Assembly: GCF_000246855.1 (NCBI RefSeq) | Contig: NC_016609.1 | Span: 1,054,001 to 1,118,000, forward strand | Length of the DNA: 64,000 bases | DNA from: Niastella koreensis GR20-10 | GTDB lineage: Bacteria > Bacteroidota > Bacteroidia > Chitinophagales > Chitinophagaceae | Reading direction: 5' to 3' | Shown: one piece after another, positions 1 through 7,506 of the stretch | Layout: each line of letters opens with the position of its first letter | Position numbering within the stretch: the first letter of the stretch is position 1 | Made by a program: the position numbers and the translations under genes | The notes under the pieces: generated by a model | What the model saw: only the letters and a program-made list of their open reading frames with translations | What the model was told of the DNA's origin: nothing | Database searches by the model: none

Positions 1-59
1 TTGAACATAATATAATGCTCATCAAAAGGAAGGATCGAGTTGAATTGCGAGTATTTCAT
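1..59 (-). CDS. Partial radical SAM/SPASM-type peptide maturase (N-terminus only)
   Basis: The reverse strand opens with ATG at 57-59 and stays open to the window edge, giving 19 complete codons that begin MKYSQFNSILPF and continue DEHYIMF. This pattern, M-K-x-S-x-[FY]-N followed by a short polar stretch and a hydrophobic aromatic segment, is how many Bacteroidota radical SAM/SPASM peptide maturases begin, as I remember the family. The CxxxCxxC cluster motif would lie outside the window, so the assignment is inference. It starts 34 bases downstream of the last of six precursor-like peptides on the same strand, which is the position expected of a maturase in a RiPP operon. Other possible identities are an unrelated downstream enzyme or transporter. 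Confidence 0.5.
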   Translation of the reverse strand, partial: MKYSQFNSILPFDEHYIMF

Positions 60-93
60 TGCATTAAATTTGAAACAATCAGGTAGGTTGTTA

Positions 94-297
94 TTACTGT
101 TTTACGCCGCAGCCGGCTACACAATTGCCACAGTTGGCCTTTGAACAATTGTTGGAGCAATCGCCGCCAATGCAATTATTTACGGGATCGGTTACACCGC
201 CAATTACCAGTGCATTGGTGCTTAAAACGGCAAAACCACCTGTTAGCTGACCTGAACTTATTTCACGGATCTTTTGTATTAATTTTCTCTTTTTCAT
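94..297 (-). CDS. Six-Cys double-glycine RiPP precursor-like peptide, copy 1
   Basis: A 67-residue peptide, the last of six tandem paralogues and nearest to the putative maturase. Residues 1-19 form a charged amphipathic leader, Gly20-Gly21 is a double-glycine site followed by Phe22, and a second hydrophobic-GG lies at 33-34. The C-terminal core carries six Cys at 42, 47, 51, 56, 59 and 63 in a context rich in Asn and Gly (NNC, NCGNC, GCG). The GG leader resembles precursors exported by C39-peptidase ABC transporters and the GG-Bacteroidales radical SAM targets (TIGR04149-type, from memory). The modification and activity are unknown. The chance that this is a non-coding artefact is very low, because five neighbours conserve the same residues. 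Confidence 0.85.
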   Translation of the reverse strand: MKKRKLIQKIREISSGQLTGGFAVLSTNALVIGGVTDPVNNCIGGDCSNNCSKANCGNCVAGCGVKQ

Positions 298-399
298 ATA
301 ACGTAGTTTAATTTGATATAAGATGCAAAACCCGTGTTGGCAGGCCCTGCATCATATTTTTTAACACCATAATAAAGTACAATGAACCGTACTAAGCTG

Positions 400-603
400 C
401 TATAGCTGGCCGCATCCCATAATACAGTTACCGCAATTGCCACCGTTGCAATTGTTGGTGGTGCAGTTTACCTTGCAATTATTAGTGGGGTCTTCAACGC
501 CTCCAATGATCAGGCCATTGGTAGATGCCAGAACCATAAACCCACCTTCCAGTTTTCCATTAAGGATTTCCTGGAGTTTTTTTATCGGCTTATCTTTTTT
601 CAT
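400..603 (-). CDS. Six-Cys double-glycine RiPP precursor-like peptide, copy 2
   Basis: A 67-residue paralogue of the flanking peptides. The leader ends at Gly20-Gly21 (KLEGGF), and a second GG lies at 34-35 after one extra residue in the linker. Cysteines are at 43, 47, 52, 57, 60 and 64. It is the most divergent of the cores: the GG before the second Cys is replaced by Val-Asn, so that loop is one residue shorter, and the tail is GCGQL rather than GCGxK. It lies 102 bases upstream of copy 1 and 48 bases downstream of copy 3, on the same strand. The conserved cysteine frame despite loop changes suggests selection on the crosslink-forming positions. That is inference; no chemistry can be read from sequence. 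Confidence 0.85.
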   Translation of the reverse strand: MKKDKPIKKLQEILNGKLEGGFMVLASTNGLIIGGVEDPTNNCKVNCTTNNCNGGNCGNCIMGCGQL

Positions 604-651
604 ACTGGTTATAGTTTTATAATTCTGCAGTTGTATTGCAGGAATACTTTA

Positions 652-855
652 TTATTGTTTCACCCCGCAGCCTTCAACACAATTACCACAATTGCCGCCG
701 TTGCAATTATTGGTGCATTTACCGCCATCGCAGTTGTTGGCAGGATCGGTAAGACCGCCAACAATAAGCGTATTTGCTTTCAGAATAACAAACCCTCCTT
801 CAAGTTGTCCTTCTTTAATTTCCTGGATTGCTTTCAACCATTTTTCTTTTTTCAT
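652..855 (-). CDS. Six-Cys double-glycine RiPP precursor-like peptide, copy 3
   Basis: A 67-residue paralogue close to the consensus of the array. The leader is lysine/glutamate-rich (MKKEKWLKAIQEIKEG) and ends in QLEGGF at residues 17-22. The second GG is at 33-34, and Cys residues are at 42, 47, 51, 56, 59 and 63. The segment DPANNC and the tail NCGNCVEGCGVKQ are near identical to copies 1 and 6. Its 5' flank (871-909) matches the 5' flank of copy 5, suggesting that coding region and leader were duplicated together or that the flank is a shared control element. The function as a secreted, post-translationally modified peptide is inferred from leader type and operon position. Confidence 0.85.
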   Translation of the reverse strand: MKKEKWLKAIQEIKEGQLEGGFVILKANTLIVGGLTDPANNCDGGKCTNNCNGGNCGNCVEGCGVKQ

Positions 856-925
856 AATTGAATATTTAACCCCTACTTTGTTTGATACAGGCTTTTCGGG
901 AATGGCCTTTTGTATGTGGAATCAA

Positions 926-1138
926 TTATTCTTTGCTACCGCAACCCGTAACACAATTACCGCAGTTTTGACCGCTTCCGCAATTATTCGAAGGCACACA
1001 ATAACCACCATTGCAATTGTTGGCGGGCTCGCTTACGCCGGCGACTATTTTAACGTCGGCCTGCAGCACTATAAAGCCTCCTTCCAGTTGCCCATTGATG
1101 AGTTGGCAAAGCTGTTTTAGAATTTTACGCTTTTGCAT
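926..1138 (-). CDS. Six-Cys double-glycine RiPP precursor-like peptide, copy 4 (variant)
   Basis: At 70 residues this is the longest and most unusual copy. The first double glycine (20-21, LEGGF) is intact, but the second hydrophobic-GG is changed to Ala33-Gly34, DP becomes EP, and an extra Cys sits in the leader at position 11. Core cysteines are at 42, 47, 53, 59, 62 and 66, with one inserted residue in each of the two loops around the third Cys. Because the first GG is invariant in all six copies and the second is not, copy 4 argues for leader removal at Gly21, or for two-step trimming in which the second site is optional. It is in the same orientation as the others, 32 bases downstream of copy 5. 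Confidence 0.85.
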   Translation of the reverse strand: MQKRKILKQLCQLINGQLEGGFIVLQADVKIVAGVSEPANNCNGGYCVPSNNCGSGQNCGNCVTGCGSKE

Positions 1139-1170
1139 ATTCGATAATTTATTTCTTTACCCGGTGTTAT

Positions 1171-1380
1171 TTAAGCTTTAGTGCCGCATGCAAATACGCA
1201 ATTGCCGCAATTGCCGCCGCTGCAGTTATTCGTTTGGCACTGACCTCCCTGGCAATTATTGACCGGGTCGGTAACCCCGCCGATCAATAAATGATTTGTA
1301 GTCATAAGTACCACGAATCCTCCTTCAAGCTGTCCGGTTTTTAAGTCCTTTAACCGGCTGATCAGTTTTTGCTTTTCCAT
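1171..1380 (-). CDS. Six-Cys double-glycine RiPP precursor-like peptide, copy 5
   Basis: A 69-residue member of the array. The leader MEKQKLISRLKDLKTG precedes QLEGGF at 17-22, the second GG is at 34-35, and Cys residues are at 43, 48, 53, 58, 61 and 65. It differs from the consensus near the C-terminus, where Ala replaces the Gly before the last Cys (VFACG instead of VxGCG). The 75-base gap to copy 6 contains the leader element at 1397-1434, which is shared with the gap upstream of copy 3. As for the whole set, the product is probably exported after cleavage at a double glycine. A metal-binding small protein is a possible alternative for a Cys-rich peptide of this size. Confidence 0.85.
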   Translation of the reverse strand: MEKQKLISRLKDLKTGQLEGGFVVLMTTNHLLIGGVTDPVNNCQGGQCQTNNCSGGNCGNCVFACGTKA

Positions 1381-1455
1381 CTTATAAAATTTATATCCCT
1401 ACTCTGTTTAAAACAGGCTTTTCGGGAAACGGCCTCTGTTCGATGTATAAACGGG

Positions 1456-1656
1456 TTATTGAACACCACAACCTTTTACACAATTGCCACAATTGCCTGT
1501 ATTGCAATTATTGGTGCATACCCCTTCTTTGCAATTATTAGCAGGGTCATCTACACCTCCCACAATCAGTGCATTGGTTTTTATAACAATGAATCCTCCA
1601 TCAAGCTGACCCTCTTTTAATTCAGCCAGCTTTTGAATTAATGTTTTCTTTAGCAT
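1456..1656 (-). CDS. Six-Cys double-glycine RiPP precursor-like peptide, copy 6 (promoter-proximal)
   Basis: A 66-residue peptide and the first of the array in transcription order. The leader MLKKTLIQKLAELKEG runs into QLDGGF at 17-22, the second GG is at 33-34, and Cys residues are at 42, 47, 51, 56, 59 and 63 with the tail GCGVQ. It begins 115 bases downstream of the stop of the outer-membrane protein gene. That gap holds a weak candidate promoter on the reverse strand, a TTG followed 20 bases later by TAAATTAT around 1707-1738, so the peptides may be transcribed from their own start rather than with the receptor. There is no recognisable Shine-Dalgarno, which is normal for Bacteroidota. 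Confidence 0.85.
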   Translation of the reverse strand: MLKKTLIQKLAELKEGQLDGGFIVIKTNALIVGGVDDPANNCKEGVCTNNCNTGNCGNCVKGCGVQ

Positions 1657-1771
1657 GAGACTATTTTTTTAAGGTTAAGAAAAAGCAATCCCTGCCGATC
1701 TTCATCGGAATAATTTACCCACGAGGTACATGACACCCAATACGGATTTAAGCGATTTTTTTCCCCTTACA

Positions 1772-4195
1772 TCAATTGCTGGCCCTGCGTCTTATTTCAT
1801 CATTTGCGGCCCCTTTATTCCTGTTTCCTTTTAACTGTTTGTTACCAAAAATGTACCTGACTTTAAGTGATACAGATCGGTTGTAATAGTTGGTACGGGT
1901 AAAATTTTCTGCCAGCAGGCTGTTGGCATACAGGTGATTCTTATAAATTGAACTACCATTATACAGATCATTCACCATCAGATATAGTGAGAATTTCCTG
2001 ACGACCTTTTTTATCATAAGATCCAGCGACGAGGTAGCGTTTATAGTTTCGCCGGAGATATCTTTTGATGAACTGTTGTATTTAAAAGTTAAAAAAGCGG
2101 TCCATTGCTTTTTTCTTGATAAAAAGACATAATTGTCCCAGAATAATGAATAATTGTAGTTGGTTATATCGGCGTTTACAAGGGGCGAAGTACTTTTATA
2201 GCTGGCATATGACAGCGTAGGAGAGAAGTAGATTTCCCAAAAGTGATTCCATAGCGGTTGATTAAGGTTTAACGTAAGATCAAGGCTGTTTATATTACCA
2301 TAATTCAGGTAGGTATTTTTAAACTTTAAGGTGTTATCCTCTTCCACTGGAATCACAAATCTTGAATAGCTGTTTTTGGTTTGATAATACGAAAGTAAAA
2401 AAATATACCTGCTGTTGAATGTATATGAAAACTCTGCATTGTTATAGATCATTGGCTGCAGAAACGGATTATTCTCTGTAAAGAAGTTCCTGTTTTGCCA
2501 TGTTCGGCCGGGAAATAAAAGTTCAATATTCGGCCGGCTGATCTTTCGGCTATAACTGATACTGAACTGGTTCTTTTTGTTGGGCGAATAGCTTACAGAA
2601 AAATTCGGGAATAAATTCAGGTAAGTAGAATCATTCTTTGATTTCAGGCTCCTTACCTCAGTAGAGTAGTTGGTATTTTCAACACGCAATCCCAGGCTGC
2701 TATTCCATTTTTCACCAAAGCTTTTTGTAGTGCTGATAAACCCACCCCAGTACTGTTCTGTATATCTGTAATTATTGCTCAGGCTGGTGTTTAATACGTA
2801 GTCTGATTGATTCCAGTCGTAATAGTGCAGGTCATTTTTTACATTCGTATTACTGAACTGAGCGCCTATATTGACCTTGCCGTTTTTTATGAAGGGATAG
2901 CTGTATTCAATTTTTTCAGACAGATTGAAGAAATTCTGTGGCAGGTCGTTTCTGTATTTTCCCGACTGAGTGGTTTCATTAAAAACACCATCATACTTTC
3001 TTGTTTGCGAAAACTGGTTGTAATCAACAATACAATCGAGGGTGACTGCTTTTTTTTCATTAATGATATGGCGGTAATTAATACTGCCATAATTATATAT
3101 ATACAGATCGTCGCCGTTTGACGGAGAAAAAAAACCTGAATCGGCCTGCGAACTACCTGCATTATAAAAAGTAGTGTTGGTGCCGGTTTGGGAAGTTCCA
3201 CTCACATGCGACAGCCAGCCGCTGTAACTGAGGTAATTATTCTTGTCGATATCATAATCGATATTCAAACCACCTCCTAAAACCAGGTACCGGCGGTAAT
3301 ACCTTGTATGCAGCAGGTTTTGAACGCCATCTGTATAGGTTAGCGTATTATCGCTGGTCCTGTAATTGAAACTGTTATTAATAAAAGGAATGATCTGAAG
3401 CGCTATTTTTCCTTTACGGTAGTTAACACCGCCATTCAACATGGTAGTATTATATACCGATTGTTGCGTTTGAAGAGCCAGGTTACCCATCCAGCCTTCG
3501 TATGGCTGGCGTTTGATATTTATATTAATGATGCCCCCGGTGATATTGGATGCATATTCACTGCCGGGATTGGTAATAATTTCTATGCTTTTAATATTTT
3601 CGGCCGGCATCGCCTGCAGCATCTGCATCAGCATGTCCCTTGGTATTTCAGTTTTTTTATTATTGATATAAACAACAGTACCAGTTCGGTTGATAATAGA
3701 AAAAGTTTCACTCCGTTCGCTGTACCTGACAAGTGGGGTATGCCGCATAATTTCCAAAGCGCTGCTTCCTTCTGCCAGGGCTTTGCCAGGCAAAAAAACA
3801 AACCGGTCTGCCTTACGGGTGAAGACAGGGTTTTCTGCCGTAACCAGTACATCCTGCAAAAACCTGGCATTATCTTCCAGTATAAGCGTAATGAAGGGAT
3901 TGTCCCGGTTTAACCTGACCTTTTGCGTAGACAGTTTTAAATAAAACCCGCGGATGCTATATGCAGAATCAGATCTCAATTGTTCATCGGTTATTGTAAA
4001 TTGAAAAAATCCGGCGCTGTCGCTCACTGCAATACCTGTTTCAAGGGTATCTTTTAAAAGCATGATGGTTGCATAGGATACACCTGTGCCACCCGGGGAA
4101 ATTACTTTCCCCTTTACCAGAGACTGGGCATACAGGTTATTGATTGTTAATGTACATATATATAGCAAAAAAAGGGTTACAGTTTTTCGCTTCAT
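1772..4195 (-). CDS. Outer-membrane beta-barrel protein with carboxypeptidase-regulatory-like and plug domains (OMP_b-brl_3 type)
   Basis: An 807-residue protein with a signal peptide (about 1-24, ending LYAQ). A carboxypeptidase-D regulatory-like domain follows at about 28-105, then a TonB-receptor plug-like segment at about 120-235 (IEIITNPGSEY and GGIININ are typical plug ends). A long aromatic, Asn/Tyr-rich beta-barrel takes up the rest. This is the architecture of the PF14905 outer-membrane family, shorter than SusC and without a recognisable SusD partner nearby. It lies directly upstream of the six peptide genes on the same strand, so export, import or sensing of the modified peptides is a reasonable but unproven role. 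Transcription starts in the 153-base gap shared with the divergent response regulator. Confidence 0.8.
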   Translation of the reverse strand: MKRKTVTLFLLYICTLTINNLYAQSLVKGKVISPGGTGVSYATIMLLKDTLETGIAVSDSAGFFQFTITDEQLRSDSAYSIRGFYLKLSTQKVRLNRDNPFITLILEDNARFLQDVLVTAENPVFTRKADRFVFLPGKALAEGSSALEIMRHTPLVRYSERSETFSIINRTGTVVYINNKKTEIPRDMLMQMLQAMPAENIKSIEIITNPGSEYASNITGGIININIKRQPYEGWMGNLALQTQQSVYNTTMLNGGVNYRKGKIALQIIPFINNSFNYRTSDNTLTYTDGVQNLLHTRYYRRYLVLGGGLNIDYDIDKNNYLSYSGWLSHVSGTSQTGTNTTFYNAGSSQADSGFFSPSNGDDLYIYNYGSINYRHIINEKKAVTLDCIVDYNQFSQTRKYDGVFNETTQSGKYRNDLPQNFFNLSEKIEYSYPFIKNGKVNIGAQFSNTNVKNDLHYYDWNQSDYVLNTSLSNNYRYTEQYWGGFISTTKSFGEKWNSSLGLRVENTNYSTEVRSLKSKNDSTYLNLFPNFSVSYSPNKKNQFSISYSRKISRPNIELLFPGRTWQNRNFFTENNPFLQPMIYNNAEFSYTFNSRYIFLLSYYQTKNSYSRFVIPVEEDNTLKFKNTYLNYGNINSLDLTLNLNQPLWNHFWEIYFSPTLSYASYKSTSPLVNADITNYNYSLFWDNYVFLSRKKQWTAFLTFKYNSSSKDISGETINATSSLDLMIKKVVRKFSLYLMVNDLYNGSSIYKNHLYANSLLAENFTRTNYYNRSVSLKVRYIFGNKQLKGNRNKGAANDEIRRRASN

Positions 4196-4348
4196 AATCG
4201 CAGCTTGTCAGTTGTTCATCTATTAGCAATTTACCTATCTTAAAGATTAAAATCTACGATAGCTTTAACAAAAAAAATCATTTATTTTTTCGTATTTGCG
4301 TAGTAGTTGCTATATAACCCTTATCATTAATTTAACCTTAAACCTAAT

Positions 4349-5002
4349 ATGAATGATCTAAACATCAGCCTTGCCATTGCTGATGACCACCGCGCTGTAC
4401 GGCAGGCCTTCAGGAATGCGTTTAGTCGATTCGGTTTTTTATCCGTTGCTTTTGAAGCAGAAAATGGTAAAGATCTGATTGCAGAACTTTCCCGGCAGCA
4501 ACCCGATGTAGTATTGTTGGATATAAAAATGCCTGAAGTGAATGGCATTGAAGCCTTAAAGATCATCCACGAAAAATTTCCCACCGTAAAGATACTGATA
4601 CTCACTGCCTATTTTGATGAAGTATATGTAGCCGAATGCCTTCAATACGGGATTAATGGATACCTGACTAAAAACATGGACATCCTTGACATTGTAAATG
4701 CGATAAAAATGGCCTTTAATAATGAGGTATATCTCACCAACCTATTAATGGATAGCCACCTAAAGTCTTATATTGTAAAGCATAAGAAAAATATGAATAC
4801 CGTGCTGCCGGAGTTTACCTGTGAAGAGCTTAAGATTCTGGAACTGATGAAACTTGAAAAAACAACCGACGAGATTTCGCATATCATGCATTTAAGCAAG
4901 CGCTCGATTGAATTGAAGCGCGACAAAATGAAGGAGAAGGCGAATGTTAAAACAATAGGGGGGTTATTATTGTACTGCCTGAAAAGAGGATTTATAGAAT
5001 AA
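4349..5002 (+). CDS. NarL/FixJ-type response regulator
   Basis: A 217-residue protein with an N-terminal receiver domain (acidic pocket Asp12-Asp13, phospho-acceptor Asp58 in VVLLDIKMPEVNG, Thr in LTAY, Lys in LTKNM). A C-terminal helix-turn-helix of the LuxR/NarL kind follows at about 150-210 (EELKILELMKLEKTTDEISHIM). It would act as a phosphorylation-dependent transcription factor. No NarL-type kinase is adjacent: the next gene is a LytS-like kinase with its own LytTR partner. This gene is divergent from the outer-membrane protein gene upstream of the peptide array and shares its 153-base intergenic region, so it is the best candidate in the window for a regulator of the peptide locus. That link is inference from position. 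Confidence 0.88.
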   Translation: MNDLNISLAIADDHRAVRQAFRNAFSRFGFLSVAFEAENGKDLIAELSRQQPDVVLLDIKMPEVNGIEALKIIHEKFPTVKILILTAYFDEVYVAECLQYGINGYLTKNMDILDIVNAIKMAFNNEVYLTNLLMDSHLKSYIVKHKKNMNTVLPEFTCEELKILELMKLEKTTDEISHIMHLSKRSIELKRDKMKEKANVKTIGGLLLYCLKRGFIE

Positions 5003-5101
5003 GATTAAAATTTGTTACAGGAATGAATGTGCCGGATTCACAAAACCTTTAACCGGATTCACATCCGGGATCATTCAAGTGGTTCTTATTGTTGAGTTTT
5101 G

Positions 5102-6769
5102 ATGAAAATTGATACTATGAAACAAAAAAAACTGCTCTGGCTTATCGCCCTTATTCCTGTACAGGTAACATTTGCCCAGATTGACCTGGATAATTATGCC
5201 ACTTCTTATTCGACAAATGATAAGGGAGCTCCTTTTATTGTAGCCGCTTTACCTTATAATGGTGTACATTTTTCCGGTATAGACCACAGCCCGAAAATAA
5301 AGCCCGAACAGGCGACCCCAAAAGGTGCCCGTCCCGCTTCATATCGCCAGCTTAATACATTTGATTCTTCGGATGTTTATTTTTTTGTTCCGGGTATATA
5401 TAAGAACAATGCCGGTGAATATGAATTCAGGATACTGCAAAATGGAATAACAGTAATGGTTCAGTGGAGTGATATCTCCAATTTTGCTGCCAATGATCTT
5501 CAGATAAATACCTACAAAAGAAATTTTGCCTTTCTGGGAGGGTATAAAACTACCTGGGGTAATTATCTCATTGCGGATATAAGAAAAAAGGGAACTGACT
5601 CTATACTTTCCTCATCGCTCGTTTACTGGCAACCGGTGCAACCCGCCATCTTAAATATTTATACACCCAATGATCTCAACGATTTTTTAAAAAGATTGAA
5701 GCGCCCCTATGATATGTCTCTAAGTAAGGAAGAATTGGAGAAATGGACCAAACGGTACCCGAAAAGTGAAATAGATACAGGCACCGGGCTTCCGCACCAT
5801 CCTGTATTTTCGGGCGACGAGAATAACCTGATCTTTTATCTTTCTACCGATATATACAAAAAGGAGGCCCTGGAGTACGAGATTGTGAAAGATGGCGTGG
5901 CAGATGGTCCCTGGAAACCCAATGAGTTTGATAATAATTTTATATGGCTTAAAAATCTCTCTCCCGGGCATTACATTTTGCATATGCGCTTTAGCGCACA
6001 GCGCCAGCATATTGCAACTTACGAATTTGATATACAGCCGAAATGGCATCAAACAGTCACTTTTAAAATTATTGCAGGCAGCTTACTGGCTGCCTTTTTT
6101 CTTCTTTTATTCAGGTTAAGCGCTCAAAGTAAAAAACTGGCTGCCCATAAACGAAAGAAAGAAACTATTGAAAATAAGCTGCGGTATATACGAGCGCAGC
6201 TTAATCCGCATTTTGTGTTTAATGCTTTGAGCTCAATACAGGGATTGATTAATAAGAAGGAAACGGAACAGGCAAATCAATACCTGAGTGAGTTCAGTTC
6301 ATTATTACGTCAAACCATTTCAAATGATGATAAAGAGACGATACCACTGGAAATGGAAATTAACAATATCGAATACTATATACGTCTTGAACAATTGCGC
6401 TTTCATTTTCAGTATTCTATTTTTGTTGATGACAAGCTGAATATCACAACAACTGAAATTCCTCCGTTTCTTATTCAGCCGCTGATGGAAAATTCTATCA
6501 AACATGGAATAGCCGCATTACAAGAAAATGGGCGCATACAGCTCAGGTTTTTACTTTCCGGAAAAGATATGGAGGTAGTGATAACTGATAATGGGAAAGG
6601 ATTTGATCCTTTGCAACCGGTCAGCGGTTTTGGTATCAGGTTAACAAAAGAAAGAATATATTTACTGAACCAGGCAGGCAGTTACCAGCACATTCTGTTA
6701 CAAATTGAAAGCGCGGCTGCTATGGGAACTACTGTTCATTTATATTTCAAAAACTGGCTTGTATTATGA
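5102..6769 (+). CDS. LytS/YehU-like sensor histidine kinase
   Basis: A sensor kinase of about 555 residues. An N-terminal signal-like segment (ending VTFAQ) precedes a roughly 300-residue extracytoplasmic region, one transmembrane helix (about 327-345, AGSLLAAFFLLLF), a short linker, and a His_kinase domain (PF06580 type) with phospho-acceptor His370 in LNPHFVFN. A HATPase module follows, with N box (PLMENSIKHG), G box (DNGKGFD) and GFGIRL. ATG at 5102 is chosen over an in-frame TTG at 5099; ATG at 5117 gives an equally good signal peptide. Its stop overlaps the next start by four bases, so kinase and LytTR regulator are translationally coupled. The sensed ligand is unknown. The extracytoplasmic region contains no Y_Y_Y or beta-propeller repeats that I can recognise. 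Confidence 0.88.
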   Translation: MKIDTMKQKKLLWLIALIPVQVTFAQIDLDNYATSYSTNDKGAPFIVAALPYNGVHFSGIDHSPKIKPEQATPKGARPASYRQLNTFDSSDVYFFVPGIYKNNAGEYEFRILQNGITVMVQWSDISNFAANDLQINTYKRNFAFLGGYKTTWGNYLIADIRKKGTDSILSSSLVYWQPVQPAILNIYTPNDLNDFLKRLKRPYDMSLSKEELEKWTKRYPKSEIDTGTGLPHHPVFSGDENNLIFYLSTDIYKKEALEYEIVKDGVADGPWKPNEFDNNFIWLKNLSPGHYILHMRFSAQRQHIATYEFDIQPKWHQTVTFKIIAGSLLAAFFLLLFRLSAQSKKLAAHKRKKETIENKLRYIRAQLNPHFVFNALSSIQGLINKKETEQANQYLSEFSSLLRQTISNDDKETIPLEMEINNIEYYIRLEQLRFHFQYSIFVDDKLNITTTEIPPFLIQPLMENSIKHGIAALQENGRIQLRFLLSGKDMEVVITDNGKGFDPLQPVSGFGIRLTKERIYLLNQAGSYQHILLQIESAAAMGTTVHLYFKNWLVL

Positions 6770-7506
6770 TCATCAATGCTGTTATTATCGATGATGAGGT
6801 AAATAATGTTGATAACCTCTCCATATTGTTGCAACAATATTGTAAGCAGGTTCATGTAGTGGCCAAAGGATTCAATGCACAGCAGGGAAAAGATATCATT
6901 CTGCAGTACAAGCCCGATCTTGTATTTTTAGATGTACAGATGCCTGGTGAAGACGGCTTTGAATTGTTGAAGTCGCTACCCGATCTTTATTTTGAAATTA
7001 TATTTGTTACTGCATATGATCAATATGGTATCCAGGCCATCAAATTTTCTGCTATTGATTATTTGCTGAAGCCTATAAAAATTCATGATCTGCAGGATGC
7101 TGTAAATAAAGTGGTCATTAAAAATTCTCAGAAAAAACAAAACCTTCAGCTGGAGAACCTGGTTAAATTATTACAACAAAATGAACCACCTCGCATTGCC
7201 ATATCTACCACCAAAGAAACCCGGTTTATAAAACCCGATAATATCATTTTTTGTGAATCATCCAATAACTATACAACGTTCCATTTGAACAATAGTGAAA
7301 CCATCATATCCTCACGGCCTATTTACGAATACGAATCTCTGCTTGGACCTTATGGCTTTATACGGTGTCATCAGTCATATATCATTAATAAAAATCATGT
7401 CAAAAGCTGGGTCAAAGAAGATGGCGGTTACCTGTTAATGGAAGATAACTCCCAGATACCGGTTTCAAGAAACAAAAAAGAAAATTTAAGGGACCTGCTC
7501 AGGTGA
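6766..7506 (+). CDS. LytTR-family response regulator
   Basis: A 246-residue protein with a receiver domain (Asp9-Asp10, phospho-acceptor Asp56 in LVFLDVQMPGEDG, Lys in YLLKP) and a C-terminal LytTR DNA-binding domain at about 145-246 (KPDNIIFCESSNNYTTFHL, then RCHQSYIINKNHV). It starts inside the last codons of the histidine kinase gene (ATGA overlap) and is its cognate partner. LytTR regulators in Bacteroidota often control adjacent transport or surface genes. Here the nearest candidates are the outer-membrane protein and peptide array upstream, or the reverse-strand nitroreductase downstream. No LytTR binding repeat pair could be identified with confidence by eye. Confidence 0.92.
   Translation: MIINAVIIDDEVNNVDNLSILLQQYCKQVHVVAKGFNAQQGKDIILQYKPDLVFLDVQMPGEDGFELLKSLPDLYFEIIFVTAYDQYGIQAIKFSAIDYLLKPIKIHDLQDAVNKVVIKNSQKKQNLQLENLVKLLQQNEPPRIAISTTKETRFIKPDNIIFCESSNNYTTFHLNNSETIISSRPIYEYESLLGPYGFIRCHQSYIINKNHVKSWVKEDGGYLLMEDNSQIPVSRNKKENLRDLLR

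Follow-up and report, generated by a model that had tools for sequence, protein, structure and literature searches.

In Niastella koreensis GR20-10, six tandem genes for small cysteine-rich peptides are followed by genes for a radical S-adenosylmethionine (SAM)/SPASM maturase and a C39-peptidase ATP-binding cassette (ABC) exporter, and together these very probably form a multi-product cluster for ribosomally synthesized and post-translationally modified peptides (RiPPs) of Bacteroidota. The array lies at the left edge of the 64,000-nucleotide stretch that we analysed (the window, G000:C1:1054001-1118000 of a single 9,033,684-base contig). A first-pass annotation, made from the window alone, had proposed a multi-product RiPP locus, and the adjacency of maturase and exporter supports that proposal. 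We also consider likely the fuller reading, in which these genes form a RiPP operon whose maturase binds the peptide leaders and builds thioethers, whose C39 exporter releases the products, and whose linked beta-barrel protein acts at the outer membrane.

The peptide array

All six precursor genes are on the minus strand and, in transcription order, encode peptides of 66 aa (1456..1656), 69 aa (1171..1380), 70 aa (926..1138), 67 aa (652..855), 67 aa (400..603) and 67 aa (94..297), the last adjoining the maturase gene; spacers between the open reading frames (ORFs) measure 32-102 bases. ORF calls and alignment bore out the earlier description of six tandem same-strand ORFs of 66-70 residues with a GG-Phe leader motif and a six-cysteine frame. 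The array members are 52-64% identical to the first peptide, which has a GGF leader and six core cysteines. Gly20-Gly21-Phe22 is invariant in 6/6, and every member shares M1, K3, G16-x-L18-x-G20-G21-F22 and Pro38-x-Asn-Asn-Cys. The Asn-rich C-terminus of each holds six core cysteines in the frame C-x3/4-C-x3/4/5-C-x4/5-C-x2-C-x3-C-G; five of the six occupy invariant columns, the second being off by one in the 400-603 peptide. A second hydrophobic-GG site, attributed earlier to the whole array, is present in five of the six peptides, whereas the 926-1138 peptide has AG rather than GG there (IVAG), and it also carries a seventh cysteine, in the leader. The pooled ratio of nonsynonymous to synonymous change (pN/pS) among the six copies is 0.37 overall and 0.29 in the cysteine region, rough values with synonymous sites saturated; the six ORFs therefore look like conserved proteins rather than chance ORFs.

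None of the six peptides matched an NCBIfam or Pfam family at E<=1, metal-binding families included, so that the known metal-binding family which the first-pass annotation had named as a possible refutation did not appear. As regards transcription signals, the pattern TTTG-N18-21-TANNTTTG, which we take to be the Bacteroidota promoter consensus, matched once in the window, away from the array, and neither sigma-70-like sites (17 in 1-4400, 12.9 expected) nor terminator-like sites (4 in 1-4400, 3.8 expected) gave a signal.

The maturase and the exporter

For the genes beyond the left edge we fetched the adjoining 38 kb and listed its ORFs of at least 100 aa and at least 120 aa. The modification and export genes that were expected to the left of the window proved to be the next two genes. 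The first, whose initial codons occupy positions 1..59 of the window on the minus strand, starts at position 59 and encodes a protein of 434 aa (whole gene G000:C1:1052755-1054059, equivalent to L001:16755-18059). Its identification as a radical SAM/SPASM enzyme, put forward as probable in the first-pass annotation, was confirmed by the motifs CNFKCWYC and GGEPL, a seven-cysteine SPASM pattern, and a Pfam match to the radical SAM domain (PF04055, E=1.6e-14). The CX3CX2C and SPASM cysteines are complete and are invariant or nearly so both in a set of 12 and in a set of 73 relatives. In the larger alignment, drawn from 80 proteins with short, fused or oddly called ones excluded, C100, C104, C107 and the SPASM residues C323, C382, C385, C391 and C395 are invariant, and C342 and C410 are conserved in at least 90%.

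For the closest relative, the Pedobacter rhodius maturase (locus L037, 66% identical to the window's), the structure model had a mean predicted local distance difference test (pLDDT) score of 92.3. Its best matches in the PDB were CteB (5why and 5wgg, template modelling (TM) scores 0.65-0.69), with TigE and SuiB also near the top. Residues 7-84 of the model comprise three strands plus helices, and the alignment to CteB spans 449-460 columns. One relative departs from the common length: the maturase ORF at L109 6001-8229 has 742 aa, about 300 more than its relatives, and the additional part had no Pfam match at E<=0.001.

The exporter (737 aa, G000:C1:1050555-1052768, minus strand) overlaps the maturase gene by 14 bases in the mechanical calls. 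A single chain carries PF03412 (Peptidase_C39, E=5.3e-30), PF00664 and PF00005, and this union of C39 peptidase domain, membrane domain and ATPase is what defines a peptidase-containing ABC transporter (PCAT). A DUF3575 protein follows the exporter; it had no counterpart among 11 loci compared. A membrane-fusion protein was located farther left, in an efflux set (L001:1745-2842). The HlyD-like label of a two-seed profile is unproven, its seed having no Pfam match at E<=0.001. No pseudo-radical-SAM gene was seen by eye in the left-hand ORF list, where no TIGR04150 search was made.

Recurrence of the gene set

Within the family sample of 294 genomes, the window's own counted, the maturase was found at E<=1e-30 in 12, that is, in 11 of the 293 others. 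A profile of the six peptides reached five other genomes, weakly, and two of these matches fell within long frames and are probably due to chance. Among the 11 loci compared, a same-strand barrel gene lies upstream in 10 and an exporter-family gene downstream in 10; at three of the 11 the maturase had been dropped from the neighbour listing by an overlap rule and was placed by profile search.

When named genomes were scanned, 176 maturase relatives came up, and the locus counts that follow refer to the best 80 of these. The 80 come from Chitinophaga, Pedobacter, Mucilaginibacter, Flavobacterium, Chryseobacterium, Tenacibaculum, Sphingobacterium and other genera, and they include one Ignavibacteriales metagenome-assembled genome (MAG) and one MAG named only as bacterium. 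An exporter lies within 4.5 kb downstream of the maturase in 74/80 loci (within 500 bases in 60), a barrel within 3.5 kb upstream in 60 and on either side in 70, and a candidate GG-Phe-type cysteine peptide in 70. Exporter, barrel and candidate peptide occur together in 57/80. The barrel and other neighbour profiles behind these counts were built from the studied loci, some of them seeded by just one or two sequences.

The reverse strand served as control for the peptide counts. On the coding strand, 111 ORFs (in 53/80 loci) combine LxGGF with two or more cysteines behind it, whereas the opposite strand of these 99,871 bases has none; in 445,145 downstream bases, counting both strands, there were seven, all of which look like further members of the family. 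Under a loose criterion, the coding strand yielded 148 ORFs in 72 loci and the reverse strand 8 in 6 loci. These recurrent Bacteroidota gene sets suggest that modified bacterial peptides of one family are involved, and 57 of the best 80 relatives carry all three partners, yet neither NCBIfam nor Pfam has a model that the window's peptides match.

The relatives vary in composition. Larger arrays occur in a Saprospiraceae MAG (about ten peptide genes at L085 2914-5834) and in a Flavobacteriaceae MAG (about eight at L062 3587-5905). Hybrid clusters with both radical SAM and lantibiotic-dehydratase genes were seen in one branch, at L030, L031, L067, L075, L076, L081, L083, L086, L093, L094 and L105, the dehydratase being identified by the N and C Pfam Lant_dehydr models for L030 and by an L030/L031 profile for the others; some of these clusters also have nitroreductase-family and flavoprotein-family genes. 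At L060, L069, L070, L079 and L088 the barrel, exporter or maturase is fragmented or short, a sign either of clusters in decay or of errors in the sequence.

Leader and core patterns

Candidate peptides were collected between barrel and maturase with a regular expression matching a [GSNA]G[FI] triplet plus two or more cysteines. It returned 143 candidates from 70 loci, a few of them visibly chance ORFs (for example at L045, L074, L078 and L087). The triplet is GGF in 123/143. Because the triplet was itself the selection criterion, the residues ahead of it are the less circular signals: Leu stands two residues before it in 122/143 and Gly four residues before it in 68/143. In 15 of the relatives' peptides, from 6 loci, GG-Phe is found together with a canonical leader of the LSxxQLxKIKGG type (14 of them counted as GGF, and one for which the regular expression stopped at a preceding NGI), which argues for a role of GG-Phe apart from cleavage. 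There is no further GG before the first cysteine in 66 of 129 GGF peptides, the array's six counted, and the leader would be cut after either the first or the second GG.

Core cysteines number 1-7 per candidate, most often four (53/143), with three in 31/143 and five in 27/143. Asn is strongly enriched immediately before cysteine (z 10.8; z 5.4 without the cases that have a cysteine four residues before). The shortest core of the type NNC-x-G-G-NC-x-x-x-C-G, at L038, has three cysteines among Asn, Gly, Ala, His and similar residues, with neither Asp nor Glu; its maturase must therefore use acceptors other than those of PapB, or perform another chemistry. Cores with alternating cysteines, for example CACAC or CxCxC, in which Asn-Cys pairs are few, were seen beside related maturases at L024 1245-1427, L077 4684-4878 and L110 5700-5900.

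Core type also follows the enzyme, cores resembling NNC-x-G-G-NC-x-x-G-C-G keeping to one side of its tree. On a maturase tree of 74 rows (8 unlabelled), with core labels assigned by a permissive regular expression and by majority per locus, 26 of the 28 rows with the NCx3NC label, query counted, are found in the 41-row side that holds the query. The three core labels need 11 changes on the tree, against a mean of 27.7 when labels were shuffled with near-copies left in, and none of 200 shuffles was as low. Core types are thus clustered on the maturase tree, which ties the core to its enzyme. Six cysteines within about 27 residues would also suit unmodified metal-binding or defensin-like peptides to which the maturase is a bystander, but we regard this explanation as very improbable, given the absence of family matches noted above, the recurrent adjacency of maturase and peptide, and the way in which core types group on the maturase tree.

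Maturation chemistry

From the fold and the nearest families, thioether cross-links are the most likely product of the maturase. Several observations weigh against parts of the reading given at the outset. The SPASM Pfam model scored 16 on the window maturase, under its gathering cut-off of 21.5, and no RRE (RiPP recognition element) family appeared among the enzyme's Pfam matches. The likeness to CteB is a match of folds at 16-18% identity, and the L037 model is also matched by SuiB, anSME, SkfB and TigE, enzymes of other chemistries. A rule with Asn as thioether acceptor in CX3N was abandoned when the enrichment of Asn at +4 (z 5.4) fell to -0.1 upon removal of cases with a following cysteine. 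The near-copies left in the label shuffles help core types to cluster on the tree. No HlyD-type Pfam match was obtained for any of nine ORFs, each 100 aa or longer, called from L001:6088 to the exporter. Finally, at least one part of the gene set is missing in 23/80 loci, partly at contig ends and partly not.

It is possible, though distinctly less probable than thioether formation, that the maturase performs a different reaction, such as epimerisation, carbon-carbon cross-linking or oxidation, and that the cysteines stay free or pair in disulfides. The fold matches just listed fit this alternative, and so does the surrounding of the cysteines, where Asn and Gly are enriched in place of the Asp/Glu of PapB, the preceding Asn most strongly. 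Against it, the best-scoring curated models are mostly those of maturases for cysteine-rich peptides or ranthipeptides (TIGR04463, Clo7bot, CefB and PapB), CteB is the best fold match, and the cores keep their cysteines while the remaining residues vary.

The outer-membrane barrel and the right-hand neighbourhood

Upstream of the array, 115 bases from the first peptide gene, lies a gene for a TonB-dependent-transporter-like outer-membrane beta-barrel of 807 aa (1772..4195, minus strand), a conserved component that went unmentioned in the first-pass annotation. PF14905 and PF00593 both scored above their Pfam cut-offs. The structure model (mean pLDDT 81.1) had PhuR as its best PDB match (TM 0.56), and the 50 matches listed are all transporters of the TonB-dependent kind; the fold match reaches into the N-terminal part, where model confidence is lower. 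A Plug domain was not matched in the window barrel at E<=0.01; in one of three relatives tried (L099) it scored 23.5 against a cut-off of 23.9. The genome has 11 such barrels at E<=1e-20, the window's counted, so a chance placement beside any particular gene is unlikely. At L026 and L027, which belong to one genus, three and four barrel-family genes surround the maturase and exporter.

The window barrel is 44-48% identical to the barrels of some related clusters and 26-29% identical to other barrels of its own genome. In other related clusters, the barrels are only 20-29% identical to it, by a differently computed identity, and these include several near clusters whose maturases are 49-56% identical to the window's. 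Across 51 loci, distances correlated between maturase and exporter (r 0.81) and between maturase and barrel (r 0.72), but the latter correlation was only 0.29 given the exporter, and a special co-evolution of barrel and maturase was dropped on that ground. The barrel may serve in import, in export or as a receptor, and as a linked outer-membrane transporter it gives a starting point for learning how modified peptides pass the outer membrane of Gram-negative cells or are brought back through it.

Import would be central if the peptides were RiPP-derived metal chelators or nutrient scavengers that are modified, exported, loaded and taken up again through the TonB-type barrel, by analogy with methanobactin. 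We hold this improbable. The linkage of a barrel of TonB-dependent-transporter fold in 70/80 loci suits it, as do the frequent odd cysteine counts (three or five in the 31 and 27 candidates noted above), which are ill-suited to full disulfide pairing. On the other hand, no recurring metal-related gene was noticed in the loci, where no systematic search was made; six variant copies would be unusual; and a role of the barrel as export port, immunity protein or adhesion protein is just as conceivable.

Beyond the barrel, on the opposite strand at 4349-7506, are a LuxR-type response regulator, a histidine kinase and a LytTR response regulator. The divergent LuxR-type regulator adjoins the barrel, a relative of it stands in the same place at L032, and the kinase and LytTR regulator come next, an arrangement that would suit an array of signalling peptides that are exported and then sensed through these two-component genes. 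Such a role seems unlikely to us, as a single receptor would hardly be expected to have six divergent cores as ligands, and response-regulator matches occur in just 3/80 related loci; the latter count also led us to reject the regulator as a general cluster partner.

Proposed pathway and function

In the pathway that we favour, modification, leader removal and export in that order, one transcript would run from the barrel through the six precursor peptides to the maturase and the C39-peptidase ABC exporter. Through an RRE-like domain at its own N-terminus, the maturase would bind the N-terminal leader, which carries the G-x-L-x-G-G-Phe motif, and would use SAM radical chemistry to form cysteine-derived thioether cross-links in the Asn-rich core. 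Gene order suggests that this single maturase would act on all six cores. The exporter would then cut the leader after a double Gly and pump the core out, and the barrel would handle the product at the outer membrane. As to function, antibacterial activity is our likeliest first guess, followed by metal scavenging and signalling. A bolder proposal, which we think has a slim chance of being right, is a four-part system found throughout Bacteroidota in which a new radical SAM branch cross-links peptides at Asn-Cys sites, a C39 transporter exports them and the producer's own TonB-type receptor recaptures them, giving a loop for peptide-based scavenging or private communication with six variants here.

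Comparison with known systems

No paper recognisable as describing this peptide and maturase family appeared among the open-literature matches listed (for example, the best 10 of 821), and searches of the open literature with core sequence strings gave no relevant paper. Ten relatives' peptides that were tried likewise had mostly no NCBIfam or Pfam match beyond weak ones under the cut-offs.

The first-pass annotation had compared the locus with the GG-Bacteroidales and SCIFF systems, a comparison that stands as analogy and fails as membership. The Bacteroidales clusters with PCAT and pseudo-radical-SAM genes are, we presume, the TIGR04148-04150 systems. With GG-Bacteroidales the window has in common its Bacteroidota host, double-Gly leaders, a radical SAM enzyme and C39-type export. 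Bacteroidales clusters with PCAT and pseudo-radical-SAM genes are described in PMC10352776. In the Niastella genome there were no matches to TIGR04148 at E<=1e-5 and none to TIGR04149 at E<=1, the latter including the six array peptides; on the ten relatives' peptides TIGR04149 gave one weak match (L106, 18.2 vs 25 bits). SCIFF (six cysteines in forty-five) peptides are clostridial, their six cysteines being modified by a radical SAM/SPASM enzyme. The SCIFF maturase model TIGR03974 scored 60.9 on the window enzyme against a cut-off of 425, and the array peptides had no match. By these sequence comparisons, the cluster is neither GG-Bacteroidales (TIGR04148/04149) nor SCIFF. Methanobactin operons are a further parallel, with a RiPP and a linked TonB-dependent outer-membrane transporter; a RiPP beside a TonB-type transporter is common to both, and the maturation enzymes and core differ.

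The closest resemblance is to the ranthipeptide and sactipeptide maturases of the CteB-PapB-Clo7bot-CefB-TIGR04463 group, with which the window shares a radical SAM domain plus SPASM and an adjoining, presumably substrate, cysteine-rich peptide; an RRE-like N-terminus, suggested by the L037 model, may be a further likeness. The window enzyme is far below the curated cut-offs of this group: it scored 174.1 of the required 525 with TIGR04463, 159 of 600 with Clo7bot, 155.3 of 600 with CefB, 132.3 of 400 with the geopeptide model, 130.7 of 500 with FlmE/OhkG and 106.5 of 340 bits with the PapB model NF047865. All of the best 25 of 54 NCBIfam families examined were likewise far from their cut-offs. 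The same six models match 73/73 relatives at E<=1e-10, and the L037 enzyme scored as low with them as the window's.

PapB, as described in PMC9413430, links cysteine to Asp through the latter's beta carbon in CX3D motifs and needs a conserved Arg372. Arg at position 372 (L037 numbering) is invariant in 73/73 relatives and may correspond to that residue, although the shared number may be an accident. In place of CX3D repeats the window cluster has Asn-Cys cores, and to these it adds a C39 exporter and an outer-membrane barrel: by inspection C-x3-D occurs in one of the six array peptides, at least one core has it in 12 of 71 loci, and Asp at +4 is not enriched (z -0.7). Although it lies below every curated cut-off tested, the window system, judged by its sequences, would work like a radical SAM RiPP system of the broad CteB/PapB group.

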